Shown here: positions 34,406 to 55,605 of the stretch, in pieces
Numbering within the stretch: the stretch's first letter is position 1
Layout of the letters: each line of letters begins with the position of its first letter
Source: Erythrobacteraceae bacterium
Lineage (GTDB): Bacteria; Pseudomonadota; Alphaproteobacteria; Sphingomonadales; Sphingomonadaceae
Direction of reading: 5' to 3'
Assembly (NCBI GenBank): GCA_027489065.1
Contig: JAIYAM010000010.1
Span: 1 to 64,000, forward strand
DNA: 64,000 bases
Program-made: the position numbers and the translations under genes
The notes under the pieces: generated by a model
Told to the model about the DNA's origin: nothing
Database searches by the model: none
The model's input: only the letters and a program-made list of their open reading frames with translations

Positions 34406-34795
34406 GATCAAATCCTCCCACTGAGATTCAATCCCTCGCGCGGGTTATTCCGCGACTCGGCAGGGTGAGTGTCTCACAAGACGAATTGTAGGACAGAACG
34501 GCGCGACATTTTGTGTCGGATATCACTAATCTGGCGTAGTACTACAAGGATTGAGGCAAGATGATTACCCTGTAACGTAGCAAAGTTGCGAATCGGCGTA
34601 AAAACGCGTCGAGAGCCGAATCGGGCTGTCATCCGCGGAGCACGGCTCAAGTGCCTGCTTGGACCCGATTTGTCGGGGTCGAGGAGGGGTCTAGGCGGGG
34701 TCTGGCAGGGCTCTGGACCGGGTCTGGCGAAGCCTGACGGCCAGCGAGTTCCGCCGCCCGCCATGCCAAAGCCGCCCGGCCATCGCGCCGCGCCG
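34406..34795. other. 390-base intergenic region with an 11-bp repeat array
   Basis: No convincing gene. It holds the promoter side of the 92-aa gene, a short AT-richer stretch around 34500-34600 (including the palindrome GTAGTACTAC at 34537), and the 4-unit 11-bp repeat array described separately at 34689-34732. An open frame on the minus strand (34474-34764) has no ribosome site and encodes low-complexity Pro/Arg-rich sequence, so I do not call it. Confidence 0.6.
34689..34732 (+). repeat. Four-unit 11-bp tandem repeat (GTCTRGC family)
   Basis: Units GTCTAGGCGGG, GTCTGGCAGGG, CTCTGGACCGG, GTCTGGCGAAG start at 34689, 34700, 34711 and 34722, exactly 11 bases apart. The same consensus (GTCT-R-G, GG-rich tail) and the same 11-bp spacing recur at 54511-54590. 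Eleven is not a multiple of three, so this is not a coding repeat. It is degenerate, and lies downstream of pccA. Confidence 0.65.
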
Positions 34796-52918: not shown

Positions 52919-53791
52919 ATGGATGTTAAGACCCAATCGCTTGCCGGCGCACCGCCTGCCGCAGCTGGCGCTCGCACGGGCGACGTGCCGGCCGACAGGT
53001 CGGGCGATAGGTCGGGCGATTCCTGGGGGGGCTTCGCGTGGTTCCTCGTCAAGCTGCTCGTTGTGGTGCTGGCGTTTCGCACCTTGGTCTTCGCGCCTTT
53101 CTCCATCCCGTCTGAGTCCATGCTGCCGCGCCTGATGAACGGCGACTACCTGCTCGCCGCCAAATGGCCCTACGGCATCTCGCGCCATTCGCTGCCCTTC
53201 GATCTGCCGCTGCCGCAGGGTCGCCTGCTGGCCGCCAGCCCGCGCCGCGGCGACGTGGTGATCTTCAAGCACCCGGTCGATGGGCGCGATTACATCAAGC
53301 GGGTGATCGGCCTTCCGGGCGACCGCGTGGCGGTGATCGGCGGCGAAGTCGTGCTGAACGGCGCGCGGGTGCCGCGTGAGCGGATCGGCGACGCGCTGGT
53401 CCCGCTGTCGCCCAACACCGGCTGCGCATGGGGCGGCACCGTCGTGCAGACCGGCGACGATGGCGAGGCGTGCTCCTATCCGCGCTACCGCGAGACCCTG
53501 CCGGAGGGCAGATCCTACGATGTGCTCGATTTTGGCCCCTCCCCGGCGGATAGCTTCGCGGAAAGAGTGGTCCCCGCCGGGCGCCTGTTCGTGATGGGCG
53601 ACAACCGCGACAGCTCGCTCGACAGCCGCTTTCCGGCGGAGGCGGGTGAAGGCGTGGGGATGATTTCCGAGGACCTGCTGGTCGGCCGCGCTGCCCTGAT
53701 CGTCTGGTCGACCGACGGGAGCGCCGAGTGGCTCAATCCCCTGACGTGGTTCACCGCCGCGCGCTGGGAGCGGATCGGGGACATGCTGTGA
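52919..53791 (+). CDS. lepB: Signal peptidase I
   Basis: 290 aa. A Pro/Ala/Asp-rich cytoplasmic N-terminus (about 37 residues), one transmembrane helix (about 40-56), then the catalytic motif FSIPSESMLPRL (Ser67) and DYIKRVIGLPGD (Lys127) of the Ser/Lys protease that removes signal peptides. C-terminal GDNRDSSLDSR is box E. It overlaps rnc by GTGA, the common lepB-rnc arrangement. Confidence 0.95.
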   Translation: MDVKTQSLAGAPPAAAGARTGDVPADRSGDRSGDSWGGFAWFLVKLLVVVLAFRTLVFAPFSIPSESMLPRLMNGDYLLAAKWPYGISRHSLPFDLPLPQGRLLAASPRRGDVVIFKHPVDGRDYIKRVIGLPGDRVAVIGGEVVLNGARVPRERIGDALVPLSPNTGCAWGGTVVQTGDDGEACSYPRYRETLPEGRSYDVLDFGPSPADSFAERVVPAGRLFVMGDNRDSSLDSRFPAEAGEGVGMISEDLLVGRAALIVWSTDGSAEWLNPLTWFTAARWERIGDML

Positions 53792-54474
53792 GCGCCGGAC
53801 TCGGCCCTGCCGCGCGCGAGTGGCTTGAGGCGCAGGGCTTCGCGCCGGAGCGCGAGGCGCCGTGGCTCGAGGCGCTGACCCACGGCAGCTTCAACGGCTC
53901 GGGAGCGGAAGTCGCGGATTACCAGCGGCTCGAATTCCTCGGCGACCGGGTGCTCGGCCTGTCGGTCGCGGCCTGGCTGTTCCGCGCCGGCGACGCGCCG
54001 GAAGGCAAGCTTTCCCAGAGGCTTAACGCCCTCGTCAGCGGCGCGACCTGCGCCCGGATCGCCCGCAAGATCGGGCTTCCGGTGCACATCCGCCTCGGCA
54101 AGCAGGCGCGCGACGATGGCGGCGCGGACAGCGACAAGATCCTCGGCGATGTGATGGAGGCGCTGATCGGCGCCTGCTTCATCGAGCACGGTTTCGACGC
54201 CGCGCAGACCCTGATCTACCGCCTCTGGGCGAGCGAGTTGGAAGGCGACGAGGGCAAATCCAAACACCCCAAGAGCGCGCTTCAGGAATGGGCTGCGGGC
54301 AACCGCCGGATGACCCCGCTCTACGAGGTGATCGACCGCTCCGGACCCGACCACGCGGCGCGCTTCACCGTCCGGGTCACGGTCCGCAACGTCGGCAGCG
54401 CCGAGGCGACCGCGACCAGCAAGGGCGAGGCCGAAAGGCTTGCCGCCAAGGCCTTCCTCGAAGAGTTCGGATGA
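53788..54474 (+). CDS. rnc: Ribonuclease III
   Basis: 228 aa. Catalytic signature EFLGDRVLGLSVAAWL with the acidic triad, DVMEALIGACFIEHG, then a C-terminal double-stranded RNA-binding domain (SKHPKSALQEWA ... AKAFLEEFG). It processes rRNA and degrades dsRNA. The start is GTG 53788, overlapping the lepB stop. The parS-like site lies immediately after its stop, and era follows after a repeat-bearing gap. Confidence 0.96.
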   Translation: MSAGLGPAAREWLEAQGFAPEREAPWLEALTHGSFNGSGAEVADYQRLEFLGDRVLGLSVAAWLFRAGDAPEGKLSQRLNALVSGATCARIARKIGLPVHIRLGKQARDDGGADSDKILGDVMEALIGACFIEHGFDAAQTLIYRLWASELEGDEGKSKHPKSALQEWAAGNRRMTPLYEVIDRSGPDHAARFTVRVTVRNVGSAEATATSKGEAERLAAKAFLEEFG

Positions 54475-54479
54475 TCGAC

Positions 54480-54495
54480 TGTTTCACGTGAAACA
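54480..54495. promoter_or_regulatory. parS-like 16-bp palindrome (ParB-binding centromere site)
   Basis: TGTTTCACGTGAAACA, a perfect palindrome identical to the standard bacterial parS consensus, five bases after the rnc stop. parS is bound by ParB and marks the origin-proximal region. It is the only copy I could see in the window. No parA/parB lies here. Its position hints that this part of the chromosome is near the replication origin. Confidence 0.85.
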
Positions 54496-54510
54496 GCGGC
54501 GGTGGCGGGG

Positions 54511-54590
54511 GTCTAGCGGAGGTCTAAAGGGGGTCTAGCAGGGGTCTAGCGTAGGTCTAGCGTAGGTCTAGCGTAGGTTAGCAGGGGTCC
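54511..54590 (+). repeat. Eight-unit 11-bp tandem repeat array between parS and era
   Basis: Units begin at 54511, 54522, 54533, 54544, 54555, 54566, 54577 and 54587, at 11-base steps (one step of 10, where a base is missing). Typical unit GTCTAGCGTAG, with GTCTAGCAGGG and GTCTAAAGGGG variants. Three consecutive units at 54544-54576 are exact. It ends about 70-80 bases before era and starts 15 bases after parS. Non-coding, one repeat per helical turn, so all units face one side of the DNA. Confidence 0.8.
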
Positions 54591-54672
54591 GGCGCCCACT
54601 TCCGCCGCGGGAGCCGCACCCTGCGCCACCCAGCCTTCGACAAGCGACCCGCGAAAGGTTATGGGGCGGGCC

Positions 54673-55605
54673 ATGACCGATACCCCCGAAGCCTCGTCCC
54701 GCCCCACCCGCTGCGGCATGATCGCCGTGATCGGCGCGCCCAATGCCGGCAAGTCCACCCTCGTCAACCAGCTCGTCGGCCAGAAGGTCGCGATCACCAG
54801 CGCCAAGGCCCAGACCACCCGCGCCCGGATGCTCGGCATCGCGCTGCACGAACTGGACGGCACGCCCACGCAGATGATTCTCGTCGACACGCCCGGCATC
54901 TTCGCGCCCCGCCGCCGCCTCGACCGCGCGATGGTCAGCGCCGCGTGGGAGGGTGCGGAAAGCGCCGACGCCGTGCTGCTGCTGGTCGATCCGATCAAGC
55001 AGCGCCGCCACGAACTAGAACCCCTGCTCGAAGCCCTCGCGACCCGCCACGAGCGCAAGATCCTCGTCATCAACAAGGTCGACCGCGCCAAGAAGGAGCC
55101 CATGCTGGCGCTGGCACAGGACCTCGCCGGCAAGGTCGATTTTGCCGAAATCTACTTCGTCTCCGCGCTGACCGGTGACGGGGTGCCCGAACTCAAGGAC
55201 GCGCTCGCCGGGATGATGCCCGAAGGCGAATGGATGTACCCCGAGGATCAGGTCTCCGACGCGTCGGAACGCCTGCTCGCCGCCGAGATCACCCGCGAAC
55301 AGCTCTACCAGCAGCTCCACGAGGAACTGCCCTACGACAGCGCGGTGCGCCCCGAAAAATACGAGGTCCGCAAGGATGGCAGCATCGAGATTCACCAGCA
55401 GATCGTGGTCGCGCGCGAAACCCAGCGCGCGATCGTGCTCGGAAAGGGCGGCGCGCGGATCAAGGCGATCGGCGCTGCGGCGAGGAAGGAATTGTCAGAG
55501 GTGCTGGGCGTGCCGGTGCACCTCTATCTCCACGTCAAGCAGCTGGAGAACTGGGCCGAGGACAAAGAGATCTTCGAAGAGATCGGGCTCGACTGGGTTC
55601 GGTAG
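54673..55605 (+). CDS. era: GTPase Era
   Basis: 310 aa (ATG 54661 would add four residues). G1 GAPNAGKSTL, G3 DTPGIF, G4 NKVD and a C-terminal KH domain with VLGKGGARIKAIGAAARKE. It binds 16S rRNA and completes 30S maturation; rnc-era are neighbours in many bacteria. No canonical ribosome site is clear for either start. The long leader (about 200 bases) holds parS and the repeats. Confidence 0.95.
   Translation: MTDTPEASSRPTRCGMIAVIGAPNAGKSTLVNQLVGQKVAITSAKAQTTRARMLGIALHELDGTPTQMILVDTPGIFAPRRRLDRAMVSAAWEGAESADAVLLLVDPIKQRRHELEPLLEALATRHERKILVINKVDRAKKEPMLALAQDLAGKVDFAEIYFVSALTGDGVPELKDALAGMMPEGEWMYPEDQVSDASERLLAAEITREQLYQQLHEELPYDSAVRPEKYEVRKDGSIEIHQQIVVARETQRAIVLGKGGARIKAIGAAARKELSEVLGVPVHLYLHVKQLENWAEDKEIFEEIGLDWVR

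Follow-up and report, generated by a model that had tools for sequence, protein, structure and literature searches.

The ParR/parC partition system of plasmid R1 contains 11-bp direct repeats, and the parS site of P1 combines A and B boxes with an IHF site. REP/BIME repeats are extragenic palindromes found in many copies near gene ends. For chromosomal parS, excerpts of two papers place the vast majority of sites within the ori domain and treat 20 to 23 sites near ori as high numbers (PMC7022226, PMC7333895). Bacillus subtilis has eight parS sites over about 0.75 Mb, and scattered parS sites occur in a few lineages, according to part of another (PMC8357415), while an extract of PMC7022226 describes binding of Pseudomonas aeruginosa ParB to half-parS sites. 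A passage of a review (PMC7333895) raises the question of what causes parS sites to cluster and why they are found so near one another.

Here we describe a composite element in which a chromosomal parS palindrome is accompanied on one side by a helically phased repeat array. Its anatomy, its polarity, its 11-bp register, its absence from the parAB cluster, its preference for convergent genes and its spread over the chromosome are established, as are its conservation at some orthologous loci and a concerted switch of its parS sequence in one species.

Results

The array between rnc and era follows a perfect parS site

We analyzed a 64,000-nucleotide stretch of DNA (the window), in which a sequence check places an array of eight units at 54511 to 54597. 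The units start at 54511, 54522, 54533, 54544, 54555, 54566, 54577, and 54587, that is, at 11-bp steps with a single 10-bp step from 54577 to 54587, in line with the eight units and the one 10-base step of the original prediction; unit 7 reads GTTAGC and unit 8 GTCCGGC. The prediction had also placed the array 15 bases past a perfect parS site and ahead of era, and the parS match together with the rnc and era ORFs confirms this arrangement. The features of the window are the following.

53788 to 54474, plus strand: rnc (ribonuclease III), left flank; ORF and codon-usage call
54480 to 54495, no strand assigned: parS palindrome TGTTTCACGTGAAACA; exact match
54496 to 54510, plus strand: 15-bp spacer setting the register; the first GGTCT starts 30 bases past the parS start
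54510 to 54597, plus strand: polar array of eight units, consensus GGTCTRRNNGG, the last two degenerate; sequence, TRF, and unit profile
54661 to 55605, plus strand: era (GTPase), right flank; ORF, start called at 54661
34674 to 34730 (about), plus strand: second 11-bp array of related units without parS (orphan array); TRF periods 11 and 22, and sequence

The flanking genes, named by recognition with no family search behind the names, are presumably rnc and era. The rnc stop codon ends 5 bases before parS, and for era a downstream ATG agrees better by eye with the relatives than the called start. The array has a TRF score of 86 at period 11, and the pattern GGTCT-N6-GGTCT-N6-GGTCT, present at four places in the window, appeared in none of 100 first-order Markov simulations of the window composition. 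At the gathering score, no Rfam family matched the array or the parS site, the only matches in the window being two tRNAs. The parS 16-mer is the same as that in the parAB-proximal cluster of the home genome (G000). It is the sole parS-like site at up to three mismatches in the window, so that no second such site accompanies the orphan array. This orphan array, which was absent from the original prediction, lies downstream of a minus-strand biotin-carboxylase-like gene (named by eye).

At the rnc-era locus of 30 relatives, one of them incomplete, an exact parS was found in 15 and an array, judged by eye, in seven. Absence from relatives at this locus, which the original prediction had named as a ground for refutation, applies to the array in many of them. 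Three of the genomes (G007, G188, and G455; L268-L270) have another sequence, conserved among them, past the end of rnc at the place expected for parS. The era gene itself had a match in 100/100 genus genomes searched, a few of them only partial or to a related GTPase.

A dispersed composite element with fixed polarity and register

The array in the window is a single instance of a dispersed composite, which is made up of a 16-bp parS and three to eight GGTCTRRNNGG units on one side of it. In the home genome (3.38 Mb, 60 contigs), GGTCT-N6-GGTCT-N6-GGTCT occurs at 116 places, against 16 for a reversed control (TCTGG at the same spacing), which overstates chance because the control string sits inside GGTCTGG units. 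When the array loci were read out, a parS-like 16-mer stood a few tens of bases ahead of nearly every array. The genome-wide search proposed in the original prediction therefore turned up dozens of further copies, and the link to parS proved to be the rule rather than a peculiarity of one locus.

The parS sample of the home genome comprises at least 59 exact TGTTYCACGTGRAACA sites, with about 7 to 13 more sites outside it. Fifty-one of the 59 are dispersed and eight lie in one cluster with the gene order rho-trmE-gidA-gidB-parA-parB, which we take, naming the genes by recognition, to be the usual origin-side arrangement. At 43 of the 51 dispersed sites, two or more GGTCT motifs lie within 150 bp on one side and read outward, compared with 0/8 of the parAB-cluster sites (Fisher 5.8e-6). 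On the opposite side, six of these 43 elements show one GGTCT as well, and one locus (L079) has two inverted matches. Sampling from the arrays gave the same picture, with a parS of up to one mismatch upstream of 16/17 arrays in G000 (drawn from 30 loci), 29/33 in G022, and 22/26 in other congeners. None of these sampled arrays had a parS with up to three mismatches downstream. Each part also occurs alone: arrays without parS number 1/17, 4/33, and 4/26 in the same three sets, and parS sites without an array make up 8/51 of the sampled dispersed sites in G000 and 11/12 of those sampled in G035.

The units keep a register with parS. In the 43 G000 elements, 175 of 177 units start at a distance from the parS start that equals 6 to 8 modulo 11. 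In G022, 103/111 units (35 elements) fall in phases 5 to 7 of 11, and in the named genomes 233/251 units (65 elements) fall in phases 6 to 8, the Rayleigh R being 0.95, 0.89, and 0.88, respectively. Several spacers in G022 are alike, so that shared descent may account for part of the register there. The first unit of the 43 G000 elements is mostly offset from the parS start by 29/30, 39 to 41, 51, or 62 bases. In the G000 unit profile GGTCT is nearly fixed and is followed by R R N N G G, in chains of three to eight units. Of 13 asymmetric parS sites with an array, 12 keep GTGAAACA on the array side and carry the variant base in the array-distal half (p 0.003). The suggestion of a protein-binding array or nucleoid-organizing element thus pointed in the right direction, since the array is phased with parS and tied to it genome-wide.

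Elements favor convergent gene ends and are spread over the whole chromosome

Gene contexts were derived with our own codon-usage ORF caller, not from annotation, and counted for flank gaps below 400 bases, which kept 37/43 elements of G000 and 32/35 of G022. Oriented by the array, the 69 elements lie in 45 convergent, 14 and 8 tandem, and 2 divergent gaps. Convergent pairs thus account for 45/69 elements but for only 36/302 other gene pairs at the same loci (Fisher 1.6e-9 in G000 and 1.3e-10 in G022). A parS lies inside a called ORF in seven cases (4/51 in G000 and 3/41 in G022), where the G022 context sample consists of 41 exact sites, part picked by array and part by the switched 16-mer described below.

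The placement near the origin that is usual for parS does not apply to the dispersed sites of the two one-contig genomes, as measured by distance from parAB. In G022, the 45 dispersed switched sites are evenly spread in this distance (KS p 0.60), with 12 of them in the 20% of the chromosome nearest parAB, about the uniform expectation, and the spacing between neighbors varies somewhat less than chance would give (CV 0.71 versus 0.97, p 0.009). G003 has 54 parS sites, 46 dispersed and eight clustered, with 13 of the 46 in the nearest 20%, again close to the uniform expectation (KS p 0.33); of its first 15 sites in map order, seven have two or more GGTCT motifs, five have one, two have the GAAC box described below, and one has neither.

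In G022 the dispersed parS sites have switched together with the parAB cluster

In the G022 genome, TGTTCCACGTGGAACA stands at seven of the eight parS sites of the parAB cluster and at 45 of the 47 dispersed exact sites. Each of the remaining three has one of the two changes, and TGTTTCACGTGAAACA is found at none. Elsewhere TGTTCCACGTGGAACA is rare, with 0 to 3 forward matches in each of 60 other genus genomes. The switch is seen, for instance, at cluster L228 (G022:C1:418348-423161). The G000 and G022 genomes share nine loci that are orthologous on both flanks and ten more that are orthologous on one flank, of 51 and 41 sites. At the nine (four picked in G022 by switched sequence and five by array), the switch is present at 9/9 and polarity is kept at 8/8 with arrays. 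In G022 the dispersed sites thus track the parAB-proximal parS sequence of the same genome.

The comparison of ParB proteins covered 30 hand-picked genomes, reduced to 29 because G007 lacks a full ParB. At position 204 (Caulobacter numbering), G022 alone among the 29 has K (R204K). A passage of PMC7383237 describes this position as a parS-contacting residue that is conserved across ParB and Noc. The home genome, 96% complete, has one ParB match; in G022, the parAB-borne ParB is accompanied by two weaker matches that resemble ParB. A switch common to parAB and dispersed sites, together with R204K, argues that one ParB reads both. This is the simplest account of the two site sets, with the residue link coming from one lineage (n = 1).

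The element was found in part of the genus

The genome samples for the array, parS, composite, switched 16-mer, era, and GAAC counts were drawn by program, and the relatives include incomplete drafts (G034, G016, and G013 among them). The exact array triple was found in 13/60 relatives, namely 12/36 congeners and 1/24 genomes of other genera, the single genome of another genus having it at one place along with two control matches. The composite was present in 8/42 genus genomes (G000 included) and in 0/354 others in the order sample, with zero control matches. A contig scan gave at least 80 composite loci, and those among the matches listed belong to Erythrobacter or Porphyrobacter isolates or to Porphyrobacter, Erythrobacteraceae, Sphingomonadales, and Alphaproteobacteria MAGs. 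Named isolates with the composite are Erythrobacter colymbi JCM 18338, E. dokdonensis DSW-74, and Porphyrobacter sp. AAP60. One IMG/VR contig (L343 893-933) contains a copy, located at the 3' end of an ORF that by eye resembles CysG. A phage origin was set aside, as this copy adjoins phage-like genes (named by eye) and is probably the host flank of a prophage.

In a ParB tree of the 29 genomes, 22 of them labeled by parS class and seven unlabeled, the 15 genomes with at least 20 parS strand-matches are separated from the seven with at most eight by one branch (support 100/100). The split indicates that many parS sites mark one side of the tree, within which the arrays vary. Three genomes (G001, G010, and G028) have 20 to 25 parS strand-matches, and the exact array triple is absent from them. 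Dispersed parS sites without arrays, in these three as well as in G000 and G035, show that tolerance does not always need the array.

A second class of dispersed sites carries a GAAC box

Dispersed parS sites without an array often have GAAC at a distance of exactly 22 bases, counted from where parS starts (parS-N6-GAAC). Counting both sides of each arrayless site, GAAC is at +22 on 5/16 sides in G000 (eight sites), 8/22 in G035 (11 sites), 8/18 at the rnc-era locus (nine sites), and 1/12 in G022 (six sites). It is found at none of the 23 parAB-cluster sites examined. Across the family sample, parS-N6-GAAC has eight occurrences in G000 and a single one in the 118 other genomes, among which there is only one other congener. 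The sites of this class are the following.

G000: C1:18154, C41:3916, C42:110732, C43:11399, C45:88325
Relatives: L278-L289 (G035), L249-L276 (rnc-era)

Discussion

We lean toward the view that the parS and its one-sided, helically phased array form a dispersed ParB-site element with a proposed protein partner. The chromosomal ParB very probably reads the dispersed palindromes. The array is likely to be read as double-stranded DNA by a protein on a fixed helix face relative to ParB, the candidate readers being a yet-unnamed protein or another face of ParB itself. ParB on parS and the protein on the array would then make up one DNA-level complex.

By analogy with ParB systems elsewhere, we speculate that the array protein might form a roadblock or an anchor, on one side only, for ParB-CTP clamps that slide along the DNA or for the SMC that they load. 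Such a barrier would confine ParB to short, polar patches where convergent genes end and would keep dozens of ori-distant parS sites from acting as competing centromeres. A passage of PMC7053999 describes unidirectional attenuation of Caulobacter ParB spreading by DNA-bound TetR in vitro. In the relevant passages of PMC5815017 and PMC7333895, Caulobacter and Pseudomonas tolerate an additional parS cluster well mainly when it lies in the region of about 500 to 600 kb around the native cluster, and moving parS sites far apart in B. subtilis makes SMC complexes collide, as stated in an extract of PMC8357415. Given the limited tolerance of distant parS clusters and the SMC collisions, a barrier would fit a need. 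The need would not be absolute, since the same sources describe a parS pair near the Caulobacter terminus as milder than a mid-arm pair (PMC5815017) and the defects of far-apart parS in B. subtilis as hardly affecting growth (PMC8357415). Genomes such as G035, with many dispersed parS sites and few arrays, also count against it.

The strongest competing account is a REP- or MITE-like extragenic repeat that copies itself into gene ends, any effect on ParB being secondary. The high copy number (dozens) and the location of most copies outside genes and close to stop codons would suit such a repeat, as would the common spacer sequence of several G022 copies and the fact that G000 and G022 share only some loci (the nine and ten given above). 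However, polarity and position are kept at the shared loci, and parS has switched in concert with the parAB cluster. We consider this account unlikely as the whole explanation; a mobile-repeat origin and a function for the element are compatible.

It is less probable still that the element works as RNA, namely as a terminator between convergent genes in which Rho would load on the C-rich strand (a rut-like site with 11-nt spacing) and the palindrome would form the 3' hairpin. Rut sites follow a spacing rule, the complement of the units is C-rich, G-poor, and regularly spaced, and the elements are enriched between convergent genes; the one-sided parS variant (12/13) would, we infer, still pair as G-U in the C-rich transcript. 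Against these points, the parS register matches the DNA helical pitch, the palindrome switches along with the parAB parS, and the window copy reads GGTCT on the rnc-era coding strand. Of the 22 tandem contexts, 14 have the C-rich strand as sense and eight have it as antisense, which is no strong preference. A hairpin with a T run is found in 9/50 element-bearing convergent gaps versus 6/25 background gaps, figures that do not tell the two sets apart.

That a protein other than ParB, with a parS-like site, reads the dispersed palindromes seems to us distinctly improbable. It would accommodate the auxiliary boxes (the array, or GAAC at +22) found at dispersed but not at parAB-cluster sites, but the home genome has its single ParB match at 96% completeness and both site sets switched together in G022.

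The array is polar, G-rich, and chromosome-wide, as a KOPS/SRS-like orientation signal for replication or translocation would be, yet only 17 of the 33 G022 arrays point from parAB to the opposite map point (7+/8- and 8+/10-), a random result when the terminus is assumed opposite parAB, and we rejected this polarity signal as having next to no chance of being right. A cis-regulatory leader of era, which the original prediction had offered as one option from the position of the array in the rnc-era gap, is rejected as well, with a probability close to nil, because dozens of copies of the element stand next to other, unrelated genes, most of them at the 3' end, with 45/69 copies between convergent genes and 2/69 in divergent gaps, and because only seven of 30 relatives have the array at rnc-era. 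A G-quadruplex was set aside by reasoning on the unit profile, where conservation is higher for TCT than for the outer Gs. Our best guess is a DNA-level array of protein that acts together with ParB; the terminator, KOPS-like, and era-leader readings fit more poorly.

If the ParB-site element is taken further, a tentative picture emerges of an Erythrobacter clade in which parS may have turned chromosome-wide, with 45 or more ParB loading sites, mostly where convergent genes end, that are possibly gated one-sidedly by an array protein giving each of them direction and range. Were this true, such gated ParB (perhaps SMC) sites would be the bacterial equivalent of sites that join a loader to a barrier. 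A clade whose chromosome carries dozens of parS sites throughout offers a natural exception to origin clustering, and the array is a candidate for making dispersed parS sites tolerable or giving them another job. G022 offers a natural ParB/parS specificity switch across 52 sites, and the named isolates with the element should put ChIP-seq and Hi-C within reach.

Comparison with known systems

ParB, parS, and scattered parS sites are already known. Our search of open-licence literature, by titles and abstract starts, found no description of the element and no matching repeat class, in keeping with the original statement, whose author knew of no described family that matches it. Nothing in the literature searched shows this number of sites, such a spread across the entire chromosome, or a phased polar array as companion; the tables of Livny et al. 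2007, which the search did not cover, could show high parS counts in related genera.

The window site belongs with chromosomal parS (ParABS): it is the same 16-bp palindrome, is identical to the sites of the parAB cluster, and is of the kind that switches alongside them in G022. The difference is that at least 45 sites are found round the chromosome (G022 and G003), mostly with a phased array (G000 and G022). Like the half-parS sites of P. aeruginosa, as far as the excerpt on them goes, the sites described here are genome-wide and outside the origin, ParB binding being predicted in our case; unlike those half-sites, they are full palindromes, mostly intergenic, and have a dedicated array. In the second class, the GAAC at +22 resembles an extra partial half-site.

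Among plasmid systems, R1 ParR/parC is similar in having direct repeats at 11-bp steps beside a partition function, a likeness by spacing, but the element here is chromosomal and dispersed, and parM and parR are absent beside the window copy, which is flanked by rnc and era. P1 parS likewise joins a partition site to a second, different motif in a fixed geometry, whereas P1 is a phage plasmid with a single locus and no 11-bp array. With REP/BIME the element has in common its many extragenic palindromic copies at gene ends; here, however, the palindrome is parS and the array is polar.
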